From assembly GCA_030433135.1 (NCBI GenBank), contig JAUILF010000007.1:1-47445 (forward strand): a DNA stretch of 47,445 nt, read 5' to 3'. Numbering within the stretch: the stretch's first letter is position 1; each line of letters starts with the position of its first letter. The notes under the pieces are model-generated. The model was not told the DNA's origin. It saw nothing but the letters and a program-made list of their open reading frames with translations, and did not search any database. This DNA is from Bacteroidia bacterium (GTDB taxonomy: Bacteria > Bacteroidota > Bacteroidia > Chitinophagales > Saprospiraceae). Position numbers and translations under genes: made by a program. Shown here piece by piece: positions 14,722 to 39,313 of the stretch.

Positions 14722-15747
14722 ATGAGCCATGAGAGTCTAAAAAACAATCTCCTACGCAAGTTATATCAGGGAACCTGTACTCGTGACGAACTTATACAGC
14801 TATTTGATCTCCTGTCTGATCCGTCGGTAGATTCCCCACCAGCCGTGATGCAGGAATTGCTGCAAAATTTGGAGCAGACAGTCCCGGATGATCCGGAACG
14901 GATAGCCCGGATTCAGGCGAGGATTGCTCAAAAGAAAAATTATTCAGTATCCAGTGATAAAGCACAAAAGCGTAGCAGATGGGGGAAAAAAATAAAGGAA
15001 TGGCAAATTGCAGCGACTATTTTGACTCTTTTTGCTGCTGCAACCTGGTTGTTGGGGAGCAACTTCCTGTCTTCAAACGATATATATAATACAGACTTTG
15101 GTGAAATCATCGAAGTTGAACTGCCCGATGGTTCTCAGGTCTCCCTCAACGGAAACTCAAGACTGGAACTACAAGGTTCATGGAAGGAGGGGGAAGACCG
15201 AAGGGTGTTATTACATGGAGAAGCCTACTTTAAGGTAAAGAAGAAGCCGGCTACCAATGCTAAGTTTAGTGTGGTGACAGCGGACGTAACGGTTAATGTG
15301 CTGGGTACTTCTTTTAACGTGAACACACATCAATCAGAAACCAGGGTTTTTCTTGAGGAGGGCGATGTAAGTATAGAGCTTGAGGATTCACCTCAACTGA
15401 TTGCTCTCAAACCCGGCCAGGTACTGCGTTATTCAGCAGTAGAGAAGAAGTTGATACCTCCTGAGGAGATAGAAGAAGACCTGGAAGTCTCCTGGAAGGC
15501 CGGTATTATGGAATTTAGAAACACACCTCTTAACAATATTCTGTTACGGATTGCAGATGCTCATCATCTCGATTTCACCATTGCTGACGATGAGCTGAAA
15601 AACCGGGAGTTTACGCTGGCATTACCCACCGGTGATATGGATGTTACCATGCAAATACTCAGCAAGACGACCGGAACACTGATCAATAAGGAAAACGGAG
15701 AATATGTATTAAGAATAAAACCGGAAAAAGAAAAAGAAGAGGATTAA
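14722..15747 (+). CDS. FecR family anti-sigma factor
   Basis: 341 aa; single TM, EVELPDGSQVSLNGNSRLE, VLLHGEAYFKVKK, VLGTSFNVNTH; C-terminal DUF4974-like region. Confidence 0.92.
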   Translation: MSHESLKNNLLRKLYQGTCTRDELIQLFDLLSDPSVDSPPAVMQELLQNLEQTVPDDPERIARIQARIAQKKNYSVSSDKAQKRSRWGKKIKEWQIAATILTLFAAATWLLGSNFLSSNDIYNTDFGEIIEVELPDGSQVSLNGNSRLELQGSWKEGEDRRVLLHGEAYFKVKKKPATNAKFSVVTADVTVNVLGTSFNVNTHQSETRVFLEEGDVSIELEDSPQLIALKPGQVLRYSAVEKKLIPPEEIEEDLEVSWKAGIMEFRNTPLNNILLRIADAHHLDFTIADDELKNREFTLALPTGDMDVTMQILSKTTGTLINKENGEYVLRIKPEKEKEED

Positions 15748-15814
15748 ACCCTATGTATTGGCCTACACTGGTAATATCCCCTTCTATTTAGTGACTTTAA
15801 AAACGGACAAAATT

Positions 15815-19417: not shown

Positions 19418-19436
19418 CCACCAGAAAACATTCGAA

Positions 19437-21206: not shown

Positions 21207-21231
21207 TCAGTAATTAAAGTTTAGATATTTG

Positions 21232-21258
21232 TGAGGTCGGATCTTGTATTCGACCTCA
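21232..21258 (+). terminator. Hairpin between susD-like gene and L-domain gene; possible terminator/attenuator
   Basis: TGAGGTCG...CGACCTCA 8-bp perfect stem with 11-nt loop, followed by aactgtttt. Confidence 0.45.
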
Positions 21259-21292
21259 ACTGTTTTAGCATGTTCCGTTAGTTGGGATTACC

Positions 21293-22597
21293 ATGATAGG
21301 GCCTGATATGATAGAGAGAGTAGAACCTGTGTTCTTGATCTTGCTCCTGGTTGCTACCGGGTGCACAGCCTCTTTTGGGCAATCCCGGTTTGAGGGAGAC
21401 TTAACCTTTGAAAGCCAGGACCAGCTGGATTCTTTCCTGCTGTATTGTGCTGACTGTGAATCTGTTTCGGGTAATGTCACTATCGAGGAAAAAGGCGTGC
21501 AGGAAATTACTAACCTCGAGGCACTCCACGGGATCACCTCTGTAGGTGGTCTTGAGATCAGAAACAATTCCAAACTGATTGACTTAAAGGGTTTAGAAGG
21601 TCTTGCGGAAGTCCATGGTGGATGTGTGATTTCTGGAAACAGTGCGCTGGAATCATTGGCTGCATTGCAGGCATTAACCAGTGTGGGAGAAAGTATCAGG
21701 ATTTCCTCCAATAGATTACTGGAAAAGGTAGCTTCTTTTAAAAACTTGAAAGTGGTCAACGGTGATTTGTCTTGTTCGGATAATCCCCGATTAAACAACC
21801 TTGATGGTTTTCAGAATATCAGGAATGTAAAAGGCAACCTGATCATCAGAGGGTGTGGCAGGCTGGTATCCATGATGGGAATGCAAGGTTTGCAAAGCAT
21901 TGGAGGGCAATTGCTGGTGGCCGAAAATGACAATTTGCTCGACCTGTCAGGACTTGACCAGCTCTCCTATATTGGAGGAGATTGTATTGTGGATCAACAC
22001 GCTGAGTTGATTTCGCTTTCCGGAATGCCACAACTAGTGACCATAGATGGATTTCTTCAGGTAGTAAATAATCCCCGGTTAACCAGTCTGCGAGGTCTGG
22101 AATCCCTGCGTAGTATTTCCGGATTACTACAGGTATACAACAACAATTCCCTGGAAACACTATCGGGGATTGATAGCCTCGTTGATGTGCATATTGATGA
22201 TCTGGCAATCATAGATAACCCCCGGCTGGATCAATGTAACGTTTCCAGTATTTGTGGATTCCTGCAAGCCAATGAAAACAGGCATTCCATCTCAGGTAAT
22301 GATGAGGGGTGTAATACCCGAAAAGAAATACTCGATCTTTGTCAAAGAGGTGGTATTACTATAACACCTGGGCCTAACGAAATTGTCTTTTATCCCGTTC
22401 CGACCACTGGACTGGTTTACTTCACAGGTTCTATTGTCAACCCTACCTTAAGTGTCGCTGATATCGCCGGTCAAAGACTAATACAAGAGCAATATGATGG
22501 AGGAGCTATTGACCTGACATTATTACCCTCGGGTGTTTACCTAGTGGAGTTGCACTCCGACCGGAAAACCATCCGAAGTTCCATTTTGAAATTATAA
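21293..22597 (+). CDS. Receptor L-domain/leucine-rich-repeat-like secreted protein with T9SS-like C-terminus
   Basis: 434 aa; repeated GNVTI/GGLEI/GGQLLVAENDNLLDLSGLDQL units; C-terminal FYPVPTTGLVYF...LPSGVYLVELHSDRKTIRSSILKL. Confidence 0.75.
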   Translation: MIGPDMIERVEPVFLILLLVATGCTASFGQSRFEGDLTFESQDQLDSFLLYCADCESVSGNVTIEEKGVQEITNLEALHGITSVGGLEIRNNSKLIDLKGLEGLAEVHGGCVISGNSALESLAALQALTSVGESIRISSNRLLEKVASFKNLKVVNGDLSCSDNPRLNNLDGFQNIRNVKGNLIIRGCGRLVSMMGMQGLQSIGGQLLVAENDNLLDLSGLDQLSYIGGDCIVDQHAELISLSGMPQLVTIDGFLQVVNNPRLTSLRGLESLRSISGLLQVYNNNSLETLSGIDSLVDVHIDDLAIIDNPRLDQCNVSSICGFLQANENRHSISGNDEGCNTRKEILDLCQRGGITITPGPNEIVFYPVPTTGLVYFTGSIVNPTLSVADIAGQRLIQEQYDGGAIDLTLLPSGVYLVELHSDRKTIRSSILKL

Positions 22598-22607
22598 CCA
22601 ATTCGAC

Positions 22608-24494
22608 ATGATCTTTTCTTCCCGAATTTATTATTCGCTAATCCTGGCTACTGCATATTGTTTTTTCCTAAGTTATACTCCTTTAATGGGGCAGCAGCAT
22701 GGGGATATACCGTCTCTTGAGAATCCGGTAAATACAGCATATTTGACAGATCAACTCAGCACCGAGACCCCTCGATTGATACTCACTCCCGACATCCAGA
22801 GGGACCTCCGACAGAAGGTCAGCAGTGTTCCGGAAGTAGGTAACTACTACCAGGCAATTAAACTCAATGCCGATGAGATCATGAAGGAACCCCTCCTTGA
22901 AAGAAAGCAAGTAGGAAGGAGATTGCTGGCTGTTTCCCGGGAAATGTTGTACCGGATGGGAATTCTGGGGATGGTTTACGTGGTGGATGGTGATAAGGAA
23001 GTCCTGGAACGGATCAATGAGGAATTGCTGGCAGTATGTGCCTTTAGCGACTGGAATCCATCACATTACCTGGATGTTGCCGAAATGTCTCTGGCGTTGG
23101 CACTTGCCATTGATTGGGTTGGTAAGGATTTGCCTCAGTCTACAGTAGAACTAACCAGGAAAAATCTGATAGAAAAGGGATTAATACCGAGTTACAATAA
23201 GGAGGGGAATACGGGCTGGATAAACGGCTCCAACAATTGGAACCAGGTTTGCCACGGGGGTATGATCGCAGCTGCTATTGTGACGGCAGAAGAGGATCCC
23301 GACCTGGCGGCCAGGACTATTGCTAGAGCACTTGATGGAATACCGCACGCCATGATCGAATACGGACCGGATGGTGTTTACCCGGAAGGGTCAACTTATT
23401 GGGGTTATGGAACCAGTTTTTCTGTGATGACATCTTCTATGCTGCAAACTGCATTTGGTACCGATTTTGGTCTGGCAGAATATCCTGCGTTCCTCGAAAG
23501 TGCAGACTTCAGAGTACTGTGCAATGCACCTTCTGGCTGGTACTATAATTTTGCAGACTGTGGTGACCGCAGAGGGCAAAATGGAGACATTACACTTGCC
23601 TGGTTTGCTACCTACACCGGCAATGCTTCCTACTATGAGAAAGAACGTTTTCTGCGGCCAGCGGCTGACATGGGAAAACTCTCACGAATAGCGGGACCGG
23701 GATTGGTATGGTTATCACAATTTGAGGAAACTAAGGCAACCAGCCTTCCCGAAGCATGGAAAGGTGATGGAGCTAACCCGATTGTGATCTTCCGTGGCTC
23801 GGAGCAGGACACACGGGATTATTATTTTGGTGGCAAGGGAGGCAGAGGCACAGTCAATCATGGCAATATGGATGGTGGTTCATTCATCTTTGAACTGGAT
23901 GGTGTGCGATGGTCTGTAGATCCGGGTAACCAGAGTTATCATGCTCTGGAAAAAACGGGTTTTAATCTGTGGGGAAGATGCCAGGAATGCGAGCGTTGGA
24001 CCCTGATAACCAAGAACAATTTCGGGCACAGCACCTTGACAGTCAATAATGAACTTCATGTTACGGATGGATTTGCATCGATCACTGCCTTCAGTAATGG
24101 TGACCAGCCATCAGCCAGTATTGATCTCACCAAGGCATTTGGGGGGAATATGACGAAGGCTGTTCGAACGTTTACCAAAGAGTCAGACCATTCGTTATTG
24201 ATTGAGGATGATATTGAACTCTCTGATTCTACTCAATCTATAACCTGGCAGATGATTACTACCGCAGAGGTGCAACTTGAAGCAGGCCGGGTCATACTAA
24301 GCAAGGATGGGAGGCAATTGGAAATACGTAACCTGTCACATCCGGCACTGATGCCCGGAGTCATTTCCCTGGATCCTCCACCCATTGAGCTCGATCGCAG
24401 GATCGGAGGTCTAAAGCGCCTGGAATTCAGATATCCGGCCTATATGTTTGAAGGTGATGAAGGAAACATTCGAATTCAACTGGCTGGTATGTAG
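22608..24494 (+). CDS. Heparinase II/III-like polysaccharide lyase family protein
   Basis: 628 aa; helical N-terminal region with NGSNNWNQVCHGGMIAAA, DGVYPEGSTYWGYGTSF; C-terminal RGTVNHGNMDGGSFIFELDGVRWSVDPGNQSY. Confidence 0.8.
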   Translation: MIFSSRIYYSLILATAYCFFLSYTPLMGQQHGDIPSLENPVNTAYLTDQLSTETPRLILTPDIQRDLRQKVSSVPEVGNYYQAIKLNADEIMKEPLLERKQVGRRLLAVSREMLYRMGILGMVYVVDGDKEVLERINEELLAVCAFSDWNPSHYLDVAEMSLALALAIDWVGKDLPQSTVELTRKNLIEKGLIPSYNKEGNTGWINGSNNWNQVCHGGMIAAAIVTAEEDPDLAARTIARALDGIPHAMIEYGPDGVYPEGSTYWGYGTSFSVMTSSMLQTAFGTDFGLAEYPAFLESADFRVLCNAPSGWYYNFADCGDRRGQNGDITLAWFATYTGNASYYEKERFLRPAADMGKLSRIAGPGLVWLSQFEETKATSLPEAWKGDGANPIVIFRGSEQDTRDYYFGGKGGRGTVNHGNMDGGSFIFELDGVRWSVDPGNQSYHALEKTGFNLWGRCQECERWTLITKNNFGHSTLTVNNELHVTDGFASITAFSNGDQPSASIDLTKAFGGNMTKAVRTFTKESDHSLLIEDDIELSDSTQSITWQMITTAEVQLEAGRVILSKDGRQLEIRNLSHPALMPGVISLDPPPIELDRRIGGLKRLEFRYPAYMFEGDEGNIRIQLAGM

Positions 24495-24698: not shown

Positions 24699-27600
24699 AT
24701 GTCGATTAGAGTAGCCATACGACATACCACGAGGTATACATACGAGCGCCACATCACCTTGTCACCTCAGGTAGTTCGATTACGCCCTGCCCCACACACC
24801 CGTACGCCGATAAAAGGTTATTCATTACATATTGAGCCGGATGATCATTTTATCAATTGGCAGCAGGATCCCTTCGGAAACTATATGGCCAGACTGGTTT
24901 TTCCCAATAAAGTCAAGGAGTTCCTGGTGGATGTGGAGGTAGTGGCAGACATGATCGTCATAAATCCGTTTGATTTTTTTATTGAAGACTATGCCCAGAA
25001 GTTTCCATTTACCTACCATGAGGATACCAGAAAAGAGCTCAATTCTTATCTGGAATGTCTGGAAGCCGGCCCGTTATTGACTTCGTGGTTAGAAGGAGCA
25101 AGGAAGCTGAAGGAGGAGGAAATGAGTACGATAGATTACCTGGTTGCAATCAATCAGAAGCTAAATCAGGACATCTTTTATAGAATACGTATGGAACCGG
25201 GAGTGCAGACCTGTGAGCAAACACTTGAATCCTCCAGTGGTTCATGTAGGGATTCTGCGTGGCTTCTGGTTCAGGTTATGCGACACCTGGGTTTGGCAGC
25301 CCGATTTGCTTCAGGGTACCTGGTACAGCTAAAAGCAGACCAGCAGTCATTGGATGGTCCTTCCGGGCCCGAAGAAGACTTTACAGATCTTCATGCCTGG
25401 GCCGAGGTGTATATACCCGGTGCTGGGTGGATTGGACTGGATCCCACTAGTGGATTATTTGCGGGGGAAGGTCACATTCCATTGGCATGTACCCCATCAC
25501 CCAGGAGCGCTGCTCCCATCAGTGGTAATGTTGAGGCATGCAAGACCGAGTTTTTCTTTGAAAATAAAGTGGTTAGGATCGAAGAAAAACCCCGTGTAAC
25601 CAAACCGTATACAGATCGGCAGTGGGAAAGGATCGTTCAGCTGGGGCATCAGGTGGAATCCGAACTGGAAGCACACGATGTTCGTCTGACCATGGGAGGG
25701 GAACCCACATTTGTGGCTGTTACTAATCAGGATGCTGCGGAATGGAATACGGCAGCAGATGGAGAGCACAAACGGAAGCTGGCAAACGAGCTTTTCAGGA
25801 AGATGAGAGACTCGTTTGGTCCCGGTGGTTTGATGCAATATGGACAGGGCAAATGGTATCCCGGAGAACCTCTTCCCCGGTGGAAACTGGCTTGTTACTG
25901 GCGCAAAGACGGAAAACCTATTTGGAAAAAAGACCATCTTTTGGCCGATCTTTCAAAACAGTATGACTACAAAATGGATGCCTCGAAGCAGTTCATGGAT
26001 AAGTTAGTCGAATACCTGCACATTGACAGTTCCAACATCACTCCTGCCTACGAAGATCCATTTTACTTTATATGGGAAGAACAGAAGTTACCGGTGGATA
26101 TTGATCCACATGATATGGATCTGGAAGATCAGTTGGAACGGAAGAAACTTTTGGAAATTCTCGATAAGGGAATCAAAACGCCAGTGTCATATGTTGTACC
26201 TATCCAGTGGAACCAGTTTGCTGAGGGCTGGGAAAGTTGCCGTTGGCAATTCAGGCGAAACCACTTGTTTCTCTTACCGGGAAATTCACCTGCGGGTCTG
26301 CGCTTACCACTTGACGCTCTTGGAAAACCGGAGGATGAAAATGACCCCTTTCTCAATAAGGTGGATCCATTTGCTGAAACAGAGCCACTACAGATAGATG
26401 ATGCGAGGTCATCCAGCAAATTTCTGACGAGTCATAAGGTATTGAACACAGCACTTCTCACAGAGGTCAGAGATGGCAAATTATTTGTATTTCTGCCGCC
26501 GATGATTCTTCTTGAGCAGTATCTCTTGTTGGTACAGGCTGTTGAAGAAGTGGCCAGCCAGTTAGACATGCCTGTATTTATAGAGGGGTATGATCCGCCA
26601 TCAGATGATCGAATTCAAAAGTTTATGGTCACACCGGATCCGGGCGTTATCGAAGTAAATATTCACCCCAGTAAGTCATGGGCTGAATTGCTATCGCATT
26701 TCGATATTCTTTTTGATCATGCTGCCTCATCCGGACTCACTACCGAAAAATTCAATTTAGATGGCAAACATACCGGCACCGGTGGTGGAAACCACATTAC
26801 GCTCGGAGGAACATCACCCAAAAACAGTCCCCTTTTACGGCGTCCCGATCTTTTGCAAAGTCTGATAACTTTCTGGCAGCATCATCCTTCACTCTCTTAT
26901 CTGTTTTCTACCCAGTTTATAGGACCAACCAGCCAGGCTCCCCGGGTCGATGAGGGCAGGGATGAGATGTTATACGAACTGGAAATCGCTTTTCAGCAGA
27001 TACCCGGAGACCTGAAAGAAGACCAGGTCCCATACTGGTTGGTGGACCGGCTATTCAGAAATCTGCTTATTGATGTGACAGGTAATACACACAGAGCTGA
27101 GTTTTGCATAGACAAGCTTTATTCTCCGGATTCTTCCAGCGGCAGACTGGGTATACTTGAATTTCGTGGATTTGACATGCCACCTCATTACCGTATGTGT
27201 ATGGTGCAATTTCTGTTGATCCGCGCTCTGGTGATGAGGTTTTGGAAAGAACCTTACCGTAAGAAGTTGGTGAGATGGGGAACTGCTTTGCATGATCGAT
27301 TCTTACTACCTCACTATTGTTACCAGGACTTAGCCGAAGTAATTCGTGATTTGAATGAGCATGGTTATGATTTTGAGATGGGCTGGTTTGAACCGTTCTT
27401 TAGTTTTCGCTTTCCTTTTCTCGGGGAGCTGCAGGTAGACAACATTCACCTTGAGGTAAGGATGGCCATCGAACCCTGGCATGTACTTGGTGAAGAAATA
27501 TCAAGCATGGGCACTGCCCGGTTTGTTGATTCTTCATTGGAGAGAGTGCAGGTAAAAGTCACCGGGTTAACCGACAAGCGGTACAAGCTATTGTGTAATG

Positions 27601-28037
27601 GATATCAGATACCTTTTCAGAGAACAGATACTCAGGGAACCTATGTGGCTGGCATTCGTTACCGCGCCTGGCAACCGCCATCAGCGCTACATCCAAACCT
27701 TCCGGTAGACACCCCCCTGGTTTTTGACCTGTATGATACCTGGACCGAGAAGTCGATCGCTGCATGCAAGTATCACGTAGCACACCCAGGAGGACGTAAC
27801 TATGATACGGCACCGGTAAATAGTTATGAAGCTGAAGCACGAAGAACCTCCCGCTTCTTTGAATTTGGACATAGCATAAATCTGGTCGAACCTACCGTTT
27901 CTGTGCCTGTCGCAACCGGTAGGTTTGTTACCCGGATTCATCATCCCACAGTCAAGGGTCGTATTGAGGATATCCAGAGTGAAGATTATCCCTATACCAT
28001 GGACTTGCGTCGGATCAAACATATCTCCCGAAGTTAA
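24699..28037 (+). CDS. Transglutaminase domain + DUF2126 (putative amidoligase) fusion
   Basis: ORF from 24663, likely start Met at 24699 (MSIRVAIRHTTRYTYERHITLSPQVVRLRPAPHTRT). TG Cys/His/Asp: GSCRDSAW, LHAWAEV, GLDPTSG. DUF2126-like LTMGGEPTFV, YGQGKWYPGEPLPRWKL, GTGGGNHITLGG. Confidence 0.9.
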   Translation: MSIRVAIRHTTRYTYERHITLSPQVVRLRPAPHTRTPIKGYSLHIEPDDHFINWQQDPFGNYMARLVFPNKVKEFLVDVEVVADMIVINPFDFFIEDYAQKFPFTYHEDTRKELNSYLECLEAGPLLTSWLEGARKLKEEEMSTIDYLVAINQKLNQDIFYRIRMEPGVQTCEQTLESSSGSCRDSAWLLVQVMRHLGLAARFASGYLVQLKADQQSLDGPSGPEEDFTDLHAWAEVYIPGAGWIGLDPTSGLFAGEGHIPLACTPSPRSAAPISGNVEACKTEFFFENKVVRIEEKPRVTKPYTDRQWERIVQLGHQVESELEAHDVRLTMGGEPTFVAVTNQDAAEWNTAADGEHKRKLANELFRKMRDSFGPGGLMQYGQGKWYPGEPLPRWKLACYWRKDGKPIWKKDHLLADLSKQYDYKMDASKQFMDKLVEYLHIDSSNITPAYEDPFYFIWEEQKLPVDIDPHDMDLEDQLERKKLLEILDKGIKTPVSYVVPIQWNQFAEGWESCRWQFRRNHLFLLPGNSPAGLRLPLDALGKPEDENDPFLNKVDPFAETEPLQIDDARSSSKFLTSHKVLNTALLTEVRDGKLFVFLPPMILLEQYLLLVQAVEEVASQLDMPVFIEGYDPPSDDRIQKFMVTPDPGVIEVNIHPSKSWAELLSHFDILFDHAASSGLTTEKFNLDGKHTGTGGGNHITLGGTSPKNSPLLRRPDLLQSLITFWQHHPSLSYLFSTQFIGPTSQAPRVDEGRDEMLYELEIAFQQIPGDLKEDQVPYWLVDRLFRNLLIDVTGNTHRAEFCIDKLYSPDSSSGRLGILEFRGFDMPPHYRMCMVQFLLIRALVMRFWKEPYRKKLVRWGTALHDRFLLPHYCYQDLAEVIRDLNEHGYDFEMGWFEPFFSFRFPFLGELQVDNIHLEVRMAIEPWHVLGEEISSMGTARFVDSSLERVQVKVTGLTDKRYKLLCNGYQIPFQRTDTQGTYVAGIRYRAWQPPSALHPNLPVDTPLVFDLYDTWTEKSIAACKYHVAHPGGRNYDTAPVNSYEAEARRTSRFFEFGHSINLVEPTVSVPVATGRFVTRIHHPTVKGRIEDIQSEDYPYTMDLRRIKHISRS

Positions 28038-28079
28038 ACCCGAACTATACATTAGGCCTTTCTTTGACGTACTGACGTA

Positions 28080-28410
28080 CTGACGAATCGCTACGCGATT
28101 GTCAGCATTCCTTCGCGATTGTTAGTACTGACGGCCTACGGCGTCACTAGGCACACTCACTGACGATTCTTCGGATGTCAGCACTACGCACACCCACACC
28201 CCACACGCACACTCACAATTACTGATGATTCTTAGGATGTCAGCGCTACGCACACCCACCCTTACTGACGATTCTTCGGATGTCAGCACTACGCACACTC
28301 ACCCTTACTGACGATCCTTGGGATGTCAGCGCTACGCACACCACACCTACTGAGGATCCTTCGGATGTCAGCACAGGCACACCCACACCCACACTCACAC
28401 TCACACTCAA
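28080..28410. repeat. Degenerate tandem array of CTGAC-N-GTCAG hairpins separated by CA-rich tracts
   Basis: Hairpin units at 28160-28181, 28222-28243, 28265-28286, 28308-28329, 28350-28371 (core CTGACGATTCTTCGGATGTCAG, then CACTACGCACACnCACCCTTA), plus diverged units at 28080-28105 and 28128-28146; spacing about 43 bp for the last units. Confidence 0.9.
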
Positions 28411-28475
28411 GTTGTGGATATCTTTTAAAAAGTGGAAGTATTAACCGTTGAAACAAACAGTATATTCGCTGTATT

Positions 28476-31046
28476 ATGCTCACGAGTTACTTAAAGGATC
28501 ATCAGAAGGATACTCTTACCTTTTTTGATGAAATGGTAAACCCGGATGGGGTAATATGGGAACATTGGAGAAAGCTACTGAACAGCTATGATCAAATGAG
28601 CCTGGATACCATGGTTCGTAAACATCGTGAGGTTCAGCGTTTGTTGCGAGAGAACGGTGTTACCTACAATGTCTATGGTGATCCGGAAGGTATCAATCGA
28701 CCCTGGGATCTTGATCCTATTCCTATGGTCTTTAGTAGTTCTGACTGGCAGCAGATAGAGGATGGACTCTTGCAAAGAGTAGATCTTCTGAATCATATTT
28801 TGCTGGATTTATATGGATCACGAACCTTGCTTCGAGCGAGCAAGATTCCGCTCGAAATGATATACAATCATGGTGGATTTCTGAGGCAGGCAGATAAATT
28901 GCGACTGAAAAGTGATTTGCAACTGATCCATTATTCCGCGGATATGGCCAGGGGGCCGAATGGTCAGATGTGGGTACTGAACGATAGGACTGATGCACCT
29001 TCTGGTGCAGGCTATGCATTGGAAAACCGTGCTGCCATGACCAGGGTTTTTCCAAAACTTATTCGTGAAAACAAGGTGAGAAAGATCTCATCCTACTATC
29101 AGACGTTAAGAGATACTCTTTCTGGTCTGGCACCGATTCATACCGACAACCCCAGGATTGTGATTCTCTCACCCGGGGCTACTAATGAAACCTATTTTGA
29201 GCATGCTTATTTGTCATCCTTTTTGGGATTTACCATGGCTTTTGGCCAGGATTTGACGGTTCGAGATGGTTATGTATGGTTGCGTACGGTGAGAGGACTG
29301 GAAAAAGTGGATGTCATCCTGAGACGTGTAGATGATGTCTATTGCGATCCGCTGGAGTTTAAGGGTGATTCTCAATTAGGTGTGGTGGGTTTGATGGAAG
29401 CAGTTAGACAAAAGAAGGTATCTGTGGTCAATCCCATTGGTTGCAGAATCCTTGAAAACCCGGGACTAATGGCGTTTCTGCCTTCACTCTGTCGGGAGAT
29501 TCTTGGACAGGATCTCATATTACCGTCCGTGGCTACCTGGTGGTGTGGACAGGAGAGGGAGAAAAAGTATGTTCTGGATAATCTTCCCGGTCTGATTATA
29601 AAGAGTATTTACCGGGATCATGAAAATCACTCCGTTGATGGGGCCGGACTTTCCCACACCGAACTGGAGTTTTGGAGAAACAGAATCAGGAAACACCCAT
29701 ATCTGTTTGTTGGCCAGGAACGGGTTCACTTTTCCACAACCCCTTCGTTGGTTGATGGCAACCTGGAGGCCAGGAATGCTTTGTTCAGAAGTTATGTTGC
29801 CGCGAATCTGGAGTCAGAATCTTATGTGGTTATGCCCGGAGGGTTGGCCAGGTCCTCAATTTCTCGTGGATTTTTCAAGGTTTCCAGTCAGATGGGTGGA
29901 ATCAGCAAGGATGCCTGGGTGGTGGGACAAAGTAACGGCAGGGATGGCAAGATCAAGGTCGGAGAAAGTACCGACCAATCTCTGCGCCCCACGCACAACG
30001 TACTTCCCAGCAGGTCGGGCGAAAGTCTTTACTGGCTTGGCCGGTATCTCGAAAGAGTGGTCTATACGTTGAGGTTGATGCGTATTGTGCTGAAAAAATA
30101 TAACGAGTCTGACGGTCAATTCTCAGACGATGAGGACCAGGCACTTCTTATCCTGTTGAAGAGTCTTACCGTATTGACATCGACTTATCCGGGGTTTGTG
30201 GGAGTAAAAACAGACAGGCAAACTGCCAGAGAAAACTTGGCTCATCCGAAGCAAGAACTTGTCTCACTGGCCCTGGATGCGGATCGCCCGGGTACGCTGG
30301 CACATTCATTACAGGCAGTTTTTAGTAACAGTTTCACTGTTCGTGACAGATTGAGTCTTGATACGTGGCGTATTCTGGATAGTATGAAGGAACAATGGAG
30401 TCAACTTGGAAGTGACAGCGATCTTGCTACTATACACAATGCTTTGGACCATTTGATTATCGAGCTAATGGCTTTTAATGGTTTGAGTATTGACAGTATG
30501 ACCAGAGAATCGAGTTGGCAGCTGCTCAATATTGGCAGATACGTGGAATCAGGTGTGTTCTCAGCAAACCTGATGAGATACACATTGGGTGAGAGCAGAA
30601 ATTTGGAGGTGGAAAAAATCCTGATGGATGTTGTGTTACAATGCAATGACAGCCTGATAACCTATCGTTACCGTTATCGTTCTAATCTTCAGTTGGCAGG
30701 AGTCTTGCAATTGCTGATCACTGTAGATGAAAACCCACGTGCTTTACTACATTTTTTACATGAGATTGAAAAACTGGTAAATAACCTGCCCCGTGGTGAT
30801 CAGGGCTCCACCTTTGTTGCCTTGCAAAAGAAGATTCTCGAGTGCAGGATGATTATCCAGCTTTGCGATATTGAGACTCTCACTCGATCAGAACCCAAAA
30901 ATCATGTACGCGAGGCATTGGATGACCTCCTGTATAAGGTTGCAAACCTTTTAGGTAATACTTCGGATCTTATTGTCGAAAACTATTTTAGCCATACTTT
31001 GAATCAATATAGTTTTGTTCAAAGCCAAAGATTACCCAATATATGA
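28476..31046 (+). CDS. Circularly permuted ATP-grasp fused to alpha-E domain
   Basis: 856 aa; N-half parallels the 33899-35332 protein (NVYGDPEGINRPWDLDPIP, APSGAGYALENR, TYFEHAYLSSFLG, RTVRGLEKVDVILRRVDD); C-half SRSGESLYWLGRYLERVVYTLRLMR is alpha-E-like. Confidence 0.9.
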   Translation: MLTSYLKDHQKDTLTFFDEMVNPDGVIWEHWRKLLNSYDQMSLDTMVRKHREVQRLLRENGVTYNVYGDPEGINRPWDLDPIPMVFSSSDWQQIEDGLLQRVDLLNHILLDLYGSRTLLRASKIPLEMIYNHGGFLRQADKLRLKSDLQLIHYSADMARGPNGQMWVLNDRTDAPSGAGYALENRAAMTRVFPKLIRENKVRKISSYYQTLRDTLSGLAPIHTDNPRIVILSPGATNETYFEHAYLSSFLGFTMAFGQDLTVRDGYVWLRTVRGLEKVDVILRRVDDVYCDPLEFKGDSQLGVVGLMEAVRQKKVSVVNPIGCRILENPGLMAFLPSLCREILGQDLILPSVATWWCGQEREKKYVLDNLPGLIIKSIYRDHENHSVDGAGLSHTELEFWRNRIRKHPYLFVGQERVHFSTTPSLVDGNLEARNALFRSYVAANLESESYVVMPGGLARSSISRGFFKVSSQMGGISKDAWVVGQSNGRDGKIKVGESTDQSLRPTHNVLPSRSGESLYWLGRYLERVVYTLRLMRIVLKKYNESDGQFSDDEDQALLILLKSLTVLTSTYPGFVGVKTDRQTARENLAHPKQELVSLALDADRPGTLAHSLQAVFSNSFTVRDRLSLDTWRILDSMKEQWSQLGSDSDLATIHNALDHLIIELMAFNGLSIDSMTRESSWQLLNIGRYVESGVFSANLMRYTLGESRNLEVEKILMDVVLQCNDSLITYRYRYRSNLQLAGVLQLLITVDENPRALLHFLHEIEKLVNNLPRGDQGSTFVALQKKILECRMIIQLCDIETLTRSEPKNHVREALDDLLYKVANLLGNTSDLIVENYFSHTLNQYSFVQSQRLPNI

Positions 31047-31975
31047 TCTTCTGCCACGCACAACAATTGGGCGTTATGATATCGTCATATATCAAAGAGA
31101 GTATGTTGATTTTTACCTGCTGCCTGGTGGCTAATGTCGGTACCAGCCAGGTTGTTTTTCCATCTGATCCGGGTGAGGCTGAGTTTATTACACAGGATAT
31201 TGGCAGATTTTGGATGGCTTTTGATGAGCTTCATCTGGGTGGAAACCCTTTCAGAGAATACCTGGATAACGGTAGTATCGGGTTAAAAGATTTCATCCCA
31301 AACCGGATTGAAAGTGCGAGAAACCTGAAGAAAGTCGTGAAAAAAAATGTGGCCCATTATGAAAAGATAAGGGAGCATTCACTTATGGTTGATCAGTTTG
31401 TCCCTGATATCAAACAGGCCTACCAGTCTTTCAAGACATTATATGAAGAGGCAGTTTTTCCCCCTACTTATTTTGTGGTGGGTGCCATGAACTCCGGAGG
31501 GACATCTACCTCAAATGGTCTGATCATAGGAGTGGAGCTTCAGGATAAAATAGAGAATGTTCCGTTTATTGTTGCTCACGAATTAATTCACTTTAATCAG
31601 CATTATCCGATCAAGAGATACACTTTGTTGGAGCAAAGTATTAAGGAAGGCAGTGCTGACTTTATAGGTGAAATAATATCGGGAAGGAATATTAATGAAC
31701 TTGCATTTAACTACGGAAATAATCATGAAGAAGAATTATGCAGGGAATTTGTTGAAATAATGGACGGTCACAATTTTCATGGTTGGCTTTATGGCAGTAG
31801 AGGAAAAAAAGAAGGCAGACCTAATGATCTGGGCTACTGGATTGGATATAGAATTTGTGCTGCTTATTACCAAAAGGCTACAGACAAGAAGCAAGCCCTG
31901 ATCGATATTTTAACGATTTCCGATTTTTCAAATTTCCTGGATCAGAGTGGTTATCTGGCAAACTTTCTGAATTAG
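31043..31975 (+). CDS. Exported HExxH metallopeptidase-like protein (DUF2268-like)
   Basis: 310 aa (alternative Met at 31076); hydrophobic N-terminus, VAHELIHFNQHYP zinc-site motif and downstream EGSADFIGE as candidate third ligand. ATGA overlap with the upstream gene. Confidence 0.7.
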   Translation: MIFCHAQQLGVMISSYIKESMLIFTCCLVANVGTSQVVFPSDPGEAEFITQDIGRFWMAFDELHLGGNPFREYLDNGSIGLKDFIPNRIESARNLKKVVKKNVAHYEKIREHSLMVDQFVPDIKQAYQSFKTLYEEAVFPPTYFVVGAMNSGGTSTSNGLIIGVELQDKIENVPFIVAHELIHFNQHYPIKRYTLLEQSIKEGSADFIGEIISGRNINELAFNYGNNHEEELCREFVEIMDGHNFHGWLYGSRGKKEGRPNDLGYWIGYRICAAYYQKATDKKQALIDILTISDFSNFLDQSGYLANFLN

Positions 31976-31990
31976 ATATATTTAACAGCC

Positions 31991-32887
31991 GTGAAGTACA
32001 AGGTTACACATATTACTAAGTATCGCTACGAATTTCCGGCTACACTATGCCATAATCTGATTTGCCAGGGCCCGGGAAATCACCCCTTTCAGAAAGTACT
32101 ACAATACCAATGTTCTATAGATCCCGAGCCACATTTGCGGCAGACCCGTCAGGATTTTTTCGACAATCAAATCGTTTATTTTTCTATTGAGCGCAGTCAC
32201 TCTCAGCTACAGGTCAAGGTTAATAGTGAGGTGGAATTATCTAAGCCGGACTGGATGGATATTAATCCGGAAGAAACCAAGCCATGGGAGGAAGTGGTAG
32301 ATTGGCTACATACTACCAAAGCCATGAATGACACAAGGCAATTTTATCTCGAGTCTCCCCATGTTTCTTTTCACGATGAAATCAAGGCCTTTGCCCTGGA
32401 GTCTTTTTCACCAGGGCGTCCGATAATGGCTGCTGCCTGGGATCTTACTGAGAGGTTGTATAAAGAGTTTGACTTTACGCCCGGCTTTACAGAAATCAGT
32501 ACACCGGTTGGGACTGTCTTTAAATACCGAAAAGGAGTATGTCAGGATTTTGCTCATCTGGCACTTTCGTGTCTGCGATCCTTAGGCTTGAGTGCCCGCT
32601 ATATCAGTGGATACATCGAGACTATTCCACCGCCGGGTAAACCCAAGCTCGTTGGTGCCGATGCCTCTCATGCTTGGATAGCACTTTTCGTTCCCGACCT
32701 GGGGTGGGTTGAATACGATGCAACCAATAAATTATTAGTGAGCGATCAGCACATTCGTGTTGCCTATGGCCGTGATTTTTCAGATGTTGTCCCATTGAAA
32801 GGAATCGTATATAGCGGCGGAGAACAAGAGATGAAGGTGAGTGTCGATGTGAAGAGACTACTTTCAAATGGCACAACCGCTGACTGA
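31991..32887 (+). CDS. Transglutaminase-like family protein
   Basis: 298 aa; N-terminal MKYKVTHITKYRYEFPATLCHNLI; Cys/His/Asp: GVCQDFAHL, ASHAWIALF, EYDATN. Start codon is GTG at 31991. Confidence 0.9.
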   Translation: MKYKVTHITKYRYEFPATLCHNLICQGPGNHPFQKVLQYQCSIDPEPHLRQTRQDFFDNQIVYFSIERSHSQLQVKVNSEVELSKPDWMDINPEETKPWEEVVDWLHTTKAMNDTRQFYLESPHVSFHDEIKAFALESFSPGRPIMAAAWDLTERLYKEFDFTPGFTEISTPVGTVFKYRKGVCQDFAHLALSCLRSLGLSARYISGYIETIPPPGKPKLVGADASHAWIALFVPDLGWVEYDATNKLLVSDQHIRVAYGRDFSDVVPLKGIVYSGGEQEMKVSVDVKRLLSNGTTAD

Positions 32888-32896
32888 TATTCTATC

Positions 32897-33877
32897 TTAT
32901 TCTGAAGTCTGTTCCTGATATTGATCCTGAGACATTTCGTGATGAAAAAATGTTTCCTGAATCGCGTCATTGACTTCATTAATATGTTTTTGCAGGTCAT
33001 CGATGAATTCGTGCAGGCCCTGTCCAATCACCTCATCAATCCGTTTGTATTCAAGATGTGACTTCAGGCTGCCCAACGTTCTTTCAGCCTCATTACTGTA
33101 GCCCATACGATTTCCGGAAATATCATGTAATGCCGTCTGTGCCTGTGTAAGACAGTGCAGTACGGATCTGGCAAAATATCGGTCGAGGATAAGAAATTCG
33201 GCAATATCATTAGTTTTGATGGTACCATATACTTTACGGTACATGTCATACGCACTGACAGATTTTAAGAGGGATCCCCATTGGACCAGATCTATGGTTG
33301 AACCCACAGCCCTGGTATGAGGTAATAGTATATGATATTTTACATCCAGTACCCGCAATGTCTTGTCGGCTCGTTCGAGGTACTGACCAATGGCACGAAA
33401 ATTCCAGCCTTCGTTACGGGAAATAGTGGAATCAAAAATACCATACAGTAGTTGACACCCCCGTTTGACCTCATTAAAAAATGTTCGAGGATCGTTTTCG
33501 AGTACATTTTCTATATCTCTCTCTTCTTTGATATAATAGTACAGGTTATTGATTTGTTCCCAGAGCTCCTTGGTTATCTCTGGCCGAATCTGTCTTGCAT
33601 TTTCACGGGCTTTTATGATGCAGTTGCGAATGGAGTTTGGGTTTTCCAGGTCAAAACTGAGAAAGGAAACTACATTGGTCTTATTGACCTGACCGTAATG
33701 TTCCTGGTATAATTCGTAATCACCAGTCGTAATAATTAATGGTTCCCATTGCTCTGGTGTTCCCGGAGCCATTTCCAGAGATAAATTGTAATTGACATCG
33801 ATAAACCGTGCATAGTTTTCGGCCCTCTCGATATACCGGCTCATCCAATAAATGGAATTTGCGGTTCTACTCAGCAT
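32897..33877 (-). CDS. Alpha-E domain protein
   Basis: 326 aa; MLSRTANSIYWMSRYIERAENYARFIDVNYNL; collinear with the C-half of the 28476-31046 protein. Confidence 0.9.
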   Translation of the reverse strand: MLSRTANSIYWMSRYIERAENYARFIDVNYNLSLEMAPGTPEQWEPLIITTGDYELYQEHYGQVNKTNVVSFLSFDLENPNSIRNCIIKARENARQIRPEITKELWEQINNLYYYIKEERDIENVLENDPRTFFNEVKRGCQLLYGIFDSTISRNEGWNFRAIGQYLERADKTLRVLDVKYHILLPHTRAVGSTIDLVQWGSLLKSVSAYDMYRKVYGTIKTNDIAEFLILDRYFARSVLHCLTQAQTALHDISGNRMGYSNEAERTLGSLKSHLEYKRIDEVIGQGLHEFIDDLQKHINEVNDAIQETFFHHEMSQDQYQEQTSE

Positions 33878-33898
33878 TTAAGTTTGTTTTTCTTTTTG

Positions 33899-35332
33899 TT
33901 AATAAAGTACCCAGGTATCCTTGCTTCCTCCTCCCTGAGAAGAGTTAACTACCAGGGATCCTTTCTTTAACGCCACCCGGGTCAGCGCTCCTGGTATAAT
34001 TTTGATGTCTTCACCAAAGAGGATATAGGGACGAAGGTCAACATGTCTTCCCTCCGGTTGTCCATCTATCATGGTTGGCACTCTGGAAAGAGAAATGGTT
34101 GGCTGGGCAATATATTTATGGGGCTGATCCAGGATTTTTTGTTTGAATTCATTTTGTTCTTCCCTGGTGGATTTTGGACCTATTAACATTCCATAGCCAC
34201 CTGATCCATCAGTTTTCTTTACCACCAATTGGTCAATGTTGTCGAGTACGTATTGTTTTTCGTCTTCTCTGGAACACAGGTATGTGTCGACATTTTTGAG
34301 AATAATATCCTCATTCAGATAATATTTGATGATATCGGGTACATAAGCATAAATGGCTTTATCATCCGCAACGCCATTGCCAGGTGCATTGGCCAGGGCT
34401 ACATTGCCTTTACTGTATGCATCAAAAATACCGGGTACACCCAACAATGAATCCTTCCGAAAAGTAAGTGGGTCCAGAAAGTCATCATCAATTCTCCGGT
34501 ATATCACATCGACTCTCTCTAGTCCCCGGATTGTCTTCATAAATACAAATCCGTCCTTGACCAGCAAATCACTTCCTTCCACCAGCTCTACGGCCATTTG
34601 CTGTGCTAAATATGAATGCTCAAAGTAAGCCGAGTTATAAATGCCTGGAGTTAGTACAGCTATAGTGGGTGATGTTAAATCTGAAAGGTGGGCAAGTGTC
34701 TTGCGCAATTCCATGGCATAATCGGTGACCGGCCTTACGCGCAGTTGTTCAAAAACATCCGGGAATGTTCTTTTCAGAATTTCCCTGTTTTCCAGCATAT
34801 AAGATACTCCCGATGGACATCTGAGATTATCCTCCAAAACTCTAAATTCACCATTAGCATCCCTGATCAGGTCTGTGCCAATAATGTGACACCAGATTTT
34901 TCGAGGCACATCTAGACCAACGCATTGTTTCAAAAAAGATGGACAGTCCAGGATCAGGTGCTCGGGAATAATCTTGTCTTTGAGGATCTTTTGATCATGA
35001 TAGATGTCTTCCAGAAATAAATTAAGTGCATAAATCCTTTGCCGGAGGCCTCGTTCCATCATGCTCCATTCTTCACCTGTAATAATTCGCGGAACAAGGT
35101 CCAGTGGCAAGATCCTTTCAATACCCTGATCGTCACTGTAAACGTTGAATGTCATACCGATCGATCTTTGAGCCCTGTCACTGGCGTATTGAAGTTGTTT
35201 CATGCGTTCACGACTCATGGCTTCAAACTTCTTTCTGAGAAGTTGAAACCCGGGTCTTACCTGCCCAGAAGTATCAAACATTTCATCATAAAATGTCTCT
35301 ACTTCGTAATGCGAGAAATCAATGCTCGACAT
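33899..35332 (-). CDS. Circularly permuted type 2 ATP-grasp protein
   Basis: 477 aa; FNVYSDDQGIERILPLDLVPRII, NLRCPSGVSYMLENR, TIRGLERVDVIYRRIDDDFLDPL, VVKKTDGSGGYGMLIGP. Confidence 0.92.
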   Translation of the reverse strand: MSSIDFSHYEVETFYDEMFDTSGQVRPGFQLLRKKFEAMSRERMKQLQYASDRAQRSIGMTFNVYSDDQGIERILPLDLVPRIITGEEWSMMERGLRQRIYALNLFLEDIYHDQKILKDKIIPEHLILDCPSFLKQCVGLDVPRKIWCHIIGTDLIRDANGEFRVLEDNLRCPSGVSYMLENREILKRTFPDVFEQLRVRPVTDYAMELRKTLAHLSDLTSPTIAVLTPGIYNSAYFEHSYLAQQMAVELVEGSDLLVKDGFVFMKTIRGLERVDVIYRRIDDDFLDPLTFRKDSLLGVPGIFDAYSKGNVALANAPGNGVADDKAIYAYVPDIIKYYLNEDIILKNVDTYLCSREDEKQYVLDNIDQLVVKKTDGSGGYGMLIGPKSTREEQNEFKQKILDQPHKYIAQPTISLSRVPTMIDGQPEGRHVDLRPYILFGEDIKIIPGALTRVALKKGSLVVNSSQGGGSKDTWVLY

Positions 35333-35655: not shown

Positions 35656-36648
35656 TCATAATTCGGCCAGGTAAATAGAGTCCGTCAAACCCTGTAAAAA
35701 GGAGATCAATTGCTTTTCTTCCTCCTCACTCAATATAAAGGACTTCAATTTGTCACTTTGCGTAGTTGTTGGATCCTGTCCTGCTTTCTGGTAATGAGTA
35801 AGTACCTCCTCCAGAGTCTGGAGGCTGCCATCATGCATATAGGGTGCTGTAATGGCAATATTTCTGAGACTGGGCACGCGAAATTTTCCCAAATCGACCG
35901 AATCAAGGGTGATGAGTGACCTGCCCGGATCTTCATATACCTGGTAGAGTCCATTGTTTTCAAACTGATTGTTGGTCAGGTTAAATCCGGAATGACAAGA
36001 CGTGCAGTTTAGTCTTTCACTTCTGAAGAGCTCCAACCCTTTCTGTGCGCCAGGAGATAGTGCTGTGGAATCCCCCTGCATGAAATGATCGTATGGTGAG
36101 TCGCTACTGATCAGTGTACGCACAAAACTAGCCAGAGAACGGGTAATTACGTATGCATCAAGATTTCTACCATAGGCAGTCATGGCCATCTTCTGATAAT
36201 GTCTATCTTTTTCCAGCCGCTTCACCAGTTTTTGAATTGGTATGCCCATCTCATTTTCATCTTCAATCGGAACCAGTGGTTGTAGTTCGAGACTGCGGAC
36301 TCCACCATCTTTGTTGATCAGGTCCAGATAAGCTGCGTTGAGTATGGAAGGTGAGTTCCGATTTCCCATTCGGCCATGAATTCCGGGAGAGATCGCTTTC
36401 CCATCAGTAAAAGCAAGCTCCGGAAGGTGGCAACTGCGACAGGAAATACTGCTGTCCAGCGAGAGGGATTTGTCAAAAAACAATCTTTGGCCCAATTCCA
36501 CCCTTGCCGTGGTGGGTACATTATCTTCCGGAATCTTCATTTCCGGAAAATAATCAGGAACTTTAATCTCAAATGAGGGCTCCTGGCAACCGGGCCATAT
36601 GATCAGTATGATACCGAATATTGTCAGCCAACTATGCATATTGCTCAC
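35656..36648 (-). CDS. Di-haem cytochrome c peroxidase / MauG-like protein
   Basis: 330 aa; two haem-c motifs CRSCH and CTSCH; FRVPSLRNIAITAPYMHDGSLQTLEEVLTHY. Confidence 0.9.
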   Translation of the reverse strand: MSNMHSWLTIFGIILIIWPGCQEPSFEIKVPDYFPEMKIPEDNVPTTARVELGQRLFFDKSLSLDSSISCRSCHLPELAFTDGKAISPGIHGRMGNRNSPSILNAAYLDLINKDGGVRSLELQPLVPIEDENEMGIPIQKLVKRLEKDRHYQKMAMTAYGRNLDAYVITRSLASFVRTLISSDSPYDHFMQGDSTALSPGAQKGLELFRSERLNCTSCHSGFNLTNNQFENNGLYQVYEDPGRSLITLDSVDLGKFRVPSLRNIAITAPYMHDGSLQTLEEVLTHYQKAGQDPTTTQSDKLKSFILSEEEEKQLISFLQGLTDSIYLAEL

Positions 36649-37385
36649 TCCAGGGTGAGTGCATTTCCCAGGTTTTCGTGGAGTAGCTCAGCCAGTGGGA
36701 GGTTGTTTCCGGTATGAGTATCCAATTCAGTACTCAGGTCTACTCCTGTAAAGAAAGTAGCCAGATCGAAAGAAAAGGTCAGGGTATTTTCTCCTCCTTC
36801 CAGGTCAATTTGGGTAGTGAGGTCGAAGTTCTTCAGCATAGGGTCTGATCCCAGGTGGTAGGCCACTCCGGTTTCCGTTACGCCGTCCCCGTCTGTATCT
36901 GTATTTCCATCCATTCTTAAGAACTTATATCCGGTATTCCAGTTCCAATGCATAGCCGGGTCCTGTATGCCCAGTGGATCGTTACTCGGTCTCGACGTAA
37001 AATCAGTTTCACTCTGAGAGTTGGTCGTCGGGTCTACACCGACAAAAAAACGTGCTTTGGAAATGTCACTGACTTCGATTTCGCCATTGAGAGTGGCTGT
37101 GTTGTCCAGGCCTGCCAGGAGATATTGGTTTTGCAGTCCGATTGTCGTACCATTTGCCTGTTCGAGTTCGATGCCACCGATATAGAAATTGGCTACATCG
37201 AAGCTGACGGTAGTTCCATTAATGGTATAGTCTTTCCCTAATTCAAGTGATTCACCATCAACGTGGAAATCAAAAGCAAAGGCCAGGGTTGCCATATCCG
37301 GTTCACTATCGTTGTCTTTGGAGCAAGCTAGACCAAAAAGAGCCAGAATGATTGCTAAGCTGAAGTATTTTATTGCAGGTTTCAT
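36645..37385 (-). CDS. MbnP-like lipoprotein (paralogue 1)
   Basis: 246 aa; lipobox FGLACSKD, VANFYIGGIEL, DPAMHWNWNTGYKFLRMDG, GVAYHLGSD, DTHTGNNLPLAELLHENLGNAL. Confidence 0.8.
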   Translation of the reverse strand: MKPAIKYFSLAIILALFGLACSKDNDSEPDMATLAFAFDFHVDGESLELGKDYTINGTTVSFDVANFYIGGIELEQANGTTIGLQNQYLLAGLDNTATLNGEIEVSDISKARFFVGVDPTTNSQSETDFTSRPSNDPLGIQDPAMHWNWNTGYKFLRMDGNTDTDGDGVTETGVAYHLGSDPMLKNFDLTTQIDLEGGENTLTFSFDLATFFTGVDLSTELDTHTGNNLPLAELLHENLGNALTLE

Positions 37386-37386
37386 A

Positions 37387-38127
37387 TTATTCAGTGGTTG
37401 TATATATGCTGTTGGATAAATTTCGTGCCAATTCTGTTGCAGCCGGTAATTGACTCAGGCTGTGCAATTGTGGATTGGCTTCAATGTCGTATATCTGATC
37501 TCCTTCAAAAGCGGATTTCAGATCAAATATGATATCGATTGTACCTCCAGTGGTGGATACCGGTAAGTTGATTTCCTGCATGACTTCATTGGATCCCAGG
37601 TGGAGGGCTATTCCGGTTTCAGCTTCCCCATCATTGTCAAGATCAATCCAGCCTTCTATTTTGGCAAAGATATAGCTGTCCCAGGCTACCCAGTATTCTC
37701 CCGGGCGGGCAAGGGGATGGCCACTGGCATAATCAGCCGGAACACTTTGGTTTTGGCTTTCTGTCAGACCCATGTTGAAAGAGATTTCCTCTATCTTACT
37801 CACATCAACTTTGTCGGTGCGGTACTGAAAGCCTTCCATCGAACTACTCAGATCGGTGTGACTGGAGGTGAGATTGACAAAGTCCACAGGCTCGATTTCC
37901 TGCACATCCTCAGAGGAACGGTACGTCAGGTCAGAAAGGTAGAAACTAAACCGGGTGAACTGAATCGTTTTTCCATCAGGATATGCGTAGTCCTGAAACA
38001 TGACCAGTGGTTCGCCTCCATATTCCAGTTTGAAGATGAGACTAACATTAGTTTTGTCGTCTTCATCACAGCTCCCGAATGTCAAGATTGCCATGAACAA
38101 GAAAGCCCATTTTAAGGTTTGACTCAT
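37387..38127 (-). CDS. MbnP-like protein, diverged (paralogue 2)
   Basis: 246 aa; same layout: FSFYLSDLTY, GEYWVAWDSYIFAKIEGWIDLDNDGEAETGIALHLGSNEVM. Confidence 0.7.
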   Translation of the reverse strand: MSQTLKWAFLFMAILTFGSCDEDDKTNVSLIFKLEYGGEPLVMFQDYAYPDGKTIQFTRFSFYLSDLTYRSSEDVQEIEPVDFVNLTSSHTDLSSSMEGFQYRTDKVDVSKIEEISFNMGLTESQNQSVPADYASGHPLARPGEYWVAWDSYIFAKIEGWIDLDNDGEAETGIALHLGSNEVMQEINLPVSTTGGTIDIIFDLKSAFEGDQIYDIEANPQLHSLSQLPAATELARNLSNSIYTTTE

Positions 38128-38227
38128 AGTTCTATCCGATTAAGACAACAACGCTAGCCACATGGGGTTAGTATTATTTATGAGAGTATTTACGTTAGTA
38201 AAGATGGAAACAAACGGCACCTGTTAA

Positions 38228-39313
38228 ATGTTTGCGAAAGTTGCTACCATAATATTGATTGCAACAGTGCTTTTCTCTTCCTGTAAAAAAGACAAGGGAG
38301 GCGACCTGGAGGACATTCCCTATAGCCCTGTGGAAGTAGATATTGTACCACCGGTGGGATTTCCCGCGATGTCCATTCCAGCGGACAATCCTACGACCAG
38401 AGAAGGGGTTTCATTGGGGCGAAGACTTTTTTTTGATCCCATACTTTCGGATGATTTTTCCATGTCCTGTTCCTCCTGTCATTTGCCTGGAGGTAGTTTT
38501 ACTGATCAGTTGGCTGTGAGTAATGGGATAGATGGTATTCCCGGCCGAAGGAGTTCCATGTCTCTGCTTAATATTGGATTTGCAGACAATGGCCTGTTTT
38601 GGGATGGAAGGGTGGAGACTTTGGAAGAACAGGCCTTGATACCGGTGGAGGATCCTATAGAGTTGCATACCACCTGGCCTACGGTGATAGAACGATTAAG
38701 AGACGACGATATCTATCCTGAATTATTTCGTGTGGCTTTTGGTATTAAGGATCGATCAGAAATTACTAAAGAACTAGCTGCCAGGGCAATGGCACAATTT
38801 GAGCGGACACTGATCAGCAGTGGCAATTCCAAATACGATCGTTGGATCCGAAATGAGGTGGAAATGACGGACGAAGAATATCTGGGAATGGTCTTGTTTT
38901 TTGATCAGGATCCAACAATTACGGATGCCGAGTGCGGGCATTGTCACAATGCTCCCTTATTTACGACCAATGAATATTTCAATAATGGTATTGAAGACAC
39001 GGACAACCTCAATGGATTTCCTGATGAGGGTAGGGGGGAAGTGACCGGCGATCAATTTGATAATGGTCGTTTCAGAGCACCCACTTTGAGAAATATACAG
39101 TTTACTGCTCCCTATATGCATGATGGCAGATTTAATACATTGGAGGAAGTAATTGATCATTATGATTCGGGAGGTCATTTTCAACCCAATAAAGATCCTC
39201 TAATTCGTCCCCTGGGATTACTTCCTTATGAAAAGGAAGCCCTGATTGCTTTTATCAATGCACTCTCAGATACTACTTTCCTGGAAAATCCAGAGCATCA
39301 GAGTCCCTTTTAG
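38228..39313 (+). CDS. Di-haem cytochrome c peroxidase / MauG-like lipoprotein
   Basis: 361 aa; lipobox LFSSCKKD; haem-c motifs CSSCH and CGHCH; FRAPTLRNIQFTAPYMHDGRFNTLEEVIDHYDSGG. Confidence 0.9.
   Translation: MFAKVATIILIATVLFSSCKKDKGGDLEDIPYSPVEVDIVPPVGFPAMSIPADNPTTREGVSLGRRLFFDPILSDDFSMSCSSCHLPGGSFTDQLAVSNGIDGIPGRRSSMSLLNIGFADNGLFWDGRVETLEEQALIPVEDPIELHTTWPTVIERLRDDDIYPELFRVAFGIKDRSEITKELAARAMAQFERTLISSGNSKYDRWIRNEVEMTDEEYLGMVLFFDQDPTITDAECGHCHNAPLFTTNEYFNNGIEDTDNLNGFPDEGRGEVTGDQFDNGRFRAPTLRNIQFTAPYMHDGRFNTLEEVIDHYDSGGHFQPNKDPLIRPLGLLPYEKEALIAFINALSDTTFLENPEHQSPF

Follow-up and report, generated by a model that had tools for sequence, protein, structure and literature searches.

Gene content of the locus and its setting

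The window, i.e. the whole stretch of 47,445 nucleotides that was analysed, is one entire contig of a 6.3 Mb genome in 577 contigs, 91% complete, and its closest named relatives in trees are from Bacteroidota. Positions 24699-35332 are filled by six open frames. Each has a strong Pfam match, which confirms all the domains proposed for them in the initial annotation:

24699..28037, + strand: fusion of a transglutaminase (TG) domain (N-terminal ~270 aa) to DUF2126; Pfam Bact_transglu_N, Transglut_core and DUF2126 (1280 bits)
28476..31046, + strand: CP_ATPgrasp_2 and Alpha-E fused in one chain (Pfam)
31043..31975, + strand: DUF2268/GldB-like HExxH protein (Pfam)
31991..32887, + strand: short TG; Pfam Bact_transglu_N and Transglut_core
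32897..33877, - strand: standalone Alpha-E (Pfam)
33899..35332, - strand: standalone CP_ATPgrasp_2 (Pfam)

NCBIfam yielded no matches for these proteins. The short TG gene, ending at 32887, and the minus-strand alpha-E gene, at 32897, are convergent and separated by 9 bases, as originally reported. The locus encodes two CP-ATP-grasps, two alpha-Es, two TGs and a single DUF2126; no CP_ATPgrasp_2 or Bact_transglu_N was found by a genome-wide domain search beyond these two of each, all inside the locus. Co-encoding of CP_ATPgrasp, Alpha-E and Bact_transglu_N/Transglut_core domains recognized by Pfam assigns the locus to the predicted CP-ATP-grasp/alpha-E/TG amide-ligation class and supports the link made at the outset to the amide-ligating systems predicted by Iyer, Aravind and colleagues.

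In both TG domains, all columns with a conservation of 93% or more across 182 TG domains are intact, and the Cys, His and Asp attributed to both of them are kept (Cys183/His232/Asp248, and Cys184/His227/Asp243 in the short TG). A survey of fused loci reveals that in relatives a short TG gene comes after the fused ATP-grasp/alpha-E gene, and that TG-DUF2126 adjoins the fused gene in nearly every locus of sufficient length. The short TG of the window has 61-65% identity to the fused-set TG of Imperialibacter, Algoriphagus and Cellulophaga versus ~30% to TGs from split sets. Sequence identity thus identifies it as the partner of the fused set and leaves the minus-strand pair without a TG of its own. 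As there is also only one DUF2126, the locus does not hold the two full sets back to back that had been described. The DUF2126 region, intact at 190 of 191 family-wide conserved columns, is a putative GS-like amidoligase. Most top PDB matches of its model (pLDDT 71) are GS-family proteins, and this lean of statistically weak matches (best E 0.038) agrees with the Pfam description.

Co-occurrence of the HExxH gene with fused and split sets had been put forward at the outset as a check. It was found in 0 of the other 120 loci examined, and its nearest homologues, 44-48% identical, are unlinked to such modules; we therefore reject it as a module member. Its G+C is 0.40 (vs 0.45), and the encoded protein begins with an apparent signal peptide. 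The gene is probably a lineage-specific insert outside the system. Anbu and Peptidase_Mx are the peptidases that recur beside these modules; the HExxH protein could conceivably substitute for them functionally, but its likely export argues against this role. A gene with Peptidase_Mx (PF15887), a type present in Winogradskyella and Cellulophaga loci, is missing from this locus, and the genome's copy is unlinked (G000:C173). In other loci a metallopeptidase gene combining a Zn-ribbon and Peptidase_Mx repeatedly adjoins the split ATP-grasp/alpha-E (L171:13447-14496, L175:13441-14493, L113:19798-20841) and is a candidate extra member of the module.

Other features of the window deserve mention. 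Between the TG-DUF2126 and fused genes, positions 28078-28371 contain at least five hairpin-like repeats of 22-23 nt, of the type CTGACGATTCTTCGGATGTCAG, at ~43 nt spacing and with CACAC-rich spacers, where zero are expected by chance. An RNA element in this interval (28037-28476) was considered and rejected: Rfam has no match and folding is not better than that of shuffles. Positions 35656-39313 carry two genes for MauG-type di-haem peroxidases adjoining two MbnP-family genes. Positions 14722-24494, adjoining the locus, resemble a polysaccharide-use locus, encoding a TonB-dependent receptor with a FecR regulator, a RagB/SusD-like lipoprotein (the SusD-like call is from sequence alone), an L-domain protein with a sorting tail and a heparinase II/III-like protein. 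A Tricorn-protease-like protein with S41 peptidase and PDZ domains is encoded at 10012-13335.

Split and fused ATP-grasp/alpha-E sets

The standalone ATP-grasp matches the solved structure 3n6x across its entire length and is intact at 59 of 61 family-wide conserved columns. It keeps E167 and N169 (E-x-N), K325 and the G378-G381 loop expected of a catalytic ATP-grasp, and is predicted to be a catalytic ligase. Its standalone alpha-E partner is intact at 8 of 8 conserved columns and retains the RENAR and both E-R motifs. A search with its AF2 model (pLDDT 85, pTM 0.86) against solved structures gave nothing at E<=0.001. Within the alpha-E sequence the helical E-R segments YIERAENYARFIDVNYNLSL and YLERADKTLRVLDVKYHILL are related to each other, which suggests that the protein arose by internal duplication.

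The minus-strand pair is 63-69% (ATP-grasp) and 48-58% (alpha-E) identical to its counterparts in Anbu operons. The values are 67-69% and 53-58% for the ATP-grasp-alphaE-Anbu-TG four-gene operons that three genomes from its family carry (L081, L084, L088), with which the split ATP-grasp of the window also clusters on the tree. By sequence the pair is thus of the Anbu-operon type, without Anbu or the TG of that operon. No gene of the proteasome family, be it Anbu or HslV, was found in the 91%-complete genome, Anbu having been sought with Pfam, whose model is weak for this protein, and with an alignment of nine relatives, so that its absence is not final. Eleven other genomes of the family have the split ATP-grasp/alpha-E genes divergent from TG-DUF2126, with Anbu detected in 10 of the 11; each has one CP_ATPgrasp_2 match, in a frame of standalone length, and hence no fused gene. 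ATP-grasp/alpha-E sets without Anbu are common among the surveyed loci. Two loci hold a split-type ATP-grasp alone, with alpha-E and TG not nearby (L031:9324-10754 and L033:9339-10844).

The two ATP-grasps of the window are not copies of each other. In a tree of 144 ATP-grasps, built with a quick method and with SH-aLRT as its only support measure, one branch (SH-aLRT 100) divides 87 fused from 57 split proteins. The two types are ancient sister clades, and a recent duplication of one half of the locus into the other is rejected. Of the 57 split copies, every one has E167 and N169 as well as the lysine of DDK and the Gly loop; we take these residues to correspond to the E-x-N metal motif, the ATP lysine and the Gly-rich loop of permuted ATP-grasps. 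The segments KVYEYN, NKAILP and VKPIAGRCGSN of the E. coli glutathionylspermidine synthetase Gss, a permuted ATP-grasp, resemble by eye RVLEDN, DDKAIYAY and VVKKTDGSGGYGM of split proteins, and profile alignment of the family to Gss with hhalign gave no supported alignment.

The E-x-N motif is found in 0/87 fused copies. Position E167 is mostly N, D, G or S in this clade, N169 is R and S234 is E in 87/87, K325 is replaced by P or other residues, and the positions of Gly378, Tyr380, Gly381 and D432 are unconserved. In the fused copy of the window the E-x-N site is occupied by N169 and R171, P329 is present and the Gly loop is lost, so that this copy departs from a catalytic ATP-grasp. The alpha-E domains differ likewise: R91, E92, N93, R95 and N110 show a conservation of 96% or more among 54 split alpha-Es and are lost in most fused ones, and the fused alpha-E half of the window is without the RENAR motif. 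Given its loss of the E-x-N, Lys, Gly-loop and RENAR elements, the fused chain is predicted to be a paralogue that has turned non-catalytic or been re-purposed. Since the conserved residues predicted to bind Mg and ATP are missing, a role as a second ATP-dependent ligase is unlikely. Given that fused copies have acquired invariant residues of their own (R171, E238), rewiring of the site is a possible alternative to its loss of function.

Co-occurrence and arrangement of the two sets

Genomes with a fused gene almost always carry a split one. With all samples pooled this is the case in 111 of 113 fused-bearing genomes (G884, met in two samples, is counted once), and split-only genomes are common. 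Loci found through the fused gene lie in split-bearing genomes in 78 of 80 cases (46/46 and 32/34), the exceptions being two fused-only MAGs, G937 and G953. In two Bacteroidota samples all seven fused-bearing genomes also have a split copy, and 18 of 22 and 43 of 49 genomes with a CP-ATP-grasp have no fused copy (one of the 43 by a fragmentary match). Among 321 evenly drawn Gammaproteobacteria, 27 of 27 fused-bearing genomes hold another CP-ATP-grasp and 64 genomes are split-only (hypergeometric 7e-17, kinship ignored). In these genome counts, which ignore relatedness, fused and split are told apart by open-frame length, and two genomes, G1213 and G1258, are uncertain. The dependence is one-way: fused copies depend on split ones, not the reverse.

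Of the 80 fused loci, 22 have split ATP-grasp/alpha-E genes no more than 10 kb away, a lower bound as many contigs end early, and 17 of the 27 fused-split pairs in the Gammaproteobacteria draw are within 12 kb. Mapping on the tree gives no fewer than 10 changes of linkage state and no fewer than 6 of the convergent layout. The split set is found in tandem upstream of the fused one (Poribacteria, an Isosphaeraceae MAG, a Thioalkalivibrio MAG), downstream in the same orientation (Cellulophaga baltica, a Phycisphaerales MAG), or in divergent or convergent orientation and accompanied by an Anbu-like gene (Methylobacter and kin). The exact mirror order of the window recurs in Tamlana sp. I1 and T. 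haliotis (L160, L178) and, with an intervening Peptidase_Mx gene, in two Winogradskyella (L171, L175). These varied layouts and repeated changes of linkage imply that the mirror is neither unique nor necessary for function; closeness of the two sets is favoured, orientation is not. The neighbourhood survey foreseen in the initial annotation thus bore out the co-occurrence of fused and split sets, in contrast to that of the HExxH gene, and its view that the two halves belong together gains from the near-universal co-occurrence and the repeated adjacency.

A proposed composite amide-ligation system and its relatives

The almost constant presence of a split copy in fused-bearing genomes suggests that the fused and split ATP-grasps operate as one machine. 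We privilege the hypothesis, with a probability of about 0.5, that the locus encodes one composite amide-ligation system in which the fused chain would be a non-catalytic partner of the active split pair, and not two parallel pathways. The locus would act as a single cytosolic system for amide ligation and trimming. Judging from its fold and intact motifs, the minus-strand ATP-grasp with its alpha-E would be an ATP-dependent ligase that activates a carboxylate by forming its acyl phosphate and then couples it with an amine. DUF2126 would add another amidoligase, of GS-like type, and hydrolysis or transfer of an amide or peptide bond through Cys-His-Asp would fall to the two TG domains. The fused ATP-grasp/alpha-E, presumably unable to bind Mg-ATP normally, would aid the active pair by substrate binding, scaffolding or allostery. 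Such a partner role would explain why the fused gene is almost never found without a split ATP-grasp, and we infer that the two chains are physical partners.

Strong conservation of the fused clade (mean column identity 62%), with its invariant N169R and S234E, its WWCGQ motif, and the retained C-terminal SKD motif and Lys preceding the loop, would also suit a fused chain that still ligates, on another substrate and through a rewired active site, so that the two sets would run two linked steps towards one product. We consider this unlikely, since the fused clade shows no conservation at K325, D432 or the Gly loop, a sign of relaxed constraint rather than re-tuning, and the fused alpha-E has lost RENAR too. 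Less credit still goes to the initial proposal, in which two complete sets run in parallel to give two related products and one gene pair acts on what the other makes. The locus does have two each of ATP-grasp, alpha-E and TG, and in many genomes the split pair alone is a working locus type, but the sets are unequal, with one DUF2126, a split pair lacking TG and Anbu, and a fused ATP site predicted to be degenerate; furthermore the fused set depends on the split one and not vice versa. This proposal is left unsupported.

It is very improbable, in our judgement, that an Anbu operon in decay left the minus-strand pair behind and that this pair lies close to the fused set by accident. Anbu was not found in the genome, close relatives have the ATP-grasp-alphaE-Anbu-TG operon and the majority of fused loci have no linked split set, all of which would fit decay; yet both genes are full length with their conserved columns nearly all or all intact, Anbu-less sets are frequent and the mirror layout recurs elsewhere. 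We thus retain the composite system as the preferred reading. Its generalization is more tentative and falls somewhat short of an even chance: a widespread amide ligase might be an obligate pair, in which an active ATP-grasp/alpha-E, with an alpha-E fold unseen in solved structures, works with a pseudoenzyme fusion bound to the TG-amidoligase.

The gene family has been predicted since 2009 to make peptide-like products, and the literature searched names none. A dead-looking paralogue with a near-constant intact partner makes it testable which chain binds ATP, whether the two form a complex and what their deletion does. The system is probably linked to nitrogen limitation, by analogy with related genes. 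Burkholderia cenocepacia I35_5080-5083 are NtrC/sigma54-dependent, with 6- to 9-fold lower expression in an ntrC mutant (PMC5491218), P. putida PP_2685 and PP_2688 are ~16- to 22-fold up in nitrate versus ammonium (log2 4.44 and 3.99; PMC8050072), and correlations in marine metagenomes link these domains to urea metabolism (PMC3597751).

Several known systems can be compared to the locus. The retropepsin-like rlo operon (PMC12239564), which has an ATP-grasp and an inactive TG, differs in architecture and was rejected as a match. The Burkholderia genes I35_5080-5083 (PMC5491218) encode DUF404/DUF407, DUF403, TG-like and large TG-like proteins similar to those of the locus; unlike in the window, no fused ATP-grasp/alpha-E is described among them. 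The minus-strand pair is of the type of the Anbu operon (ATP-grasp, alpha-E, Anbu, TG; PMC5666114, PMC6376114), from which the window departs in that the pair has no detected Anbu or Anbu-operon TG and converges on a fused set. In Yersinia the ATP-grasp of this operon releases phosphate from ATP, and the operon proteins gave no stable pull-down or complex with Anbu (PMC6376114). In 2009 Iyer, Abhiman, Burroughs and Aravind predicted CP-ATP-grasp/alpha-E/transglutaminase peptide systems whose domains, fusions and neighbourhood logic, as relayed in PMC5666114 and PMC3597751, are the same as here. The parts and general setting are ordinary and the components already known; the asymmetry and near-obligate pairing do not appear in the literature searched, outside which the founding 2009 article lies, and may be partly known. 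Beyond systems of that type, as so relayed, the present locus has unequal ATP-grasp paralogues, one intact and one apparently degenerate, and a one-way dependence of the fused on the split set.
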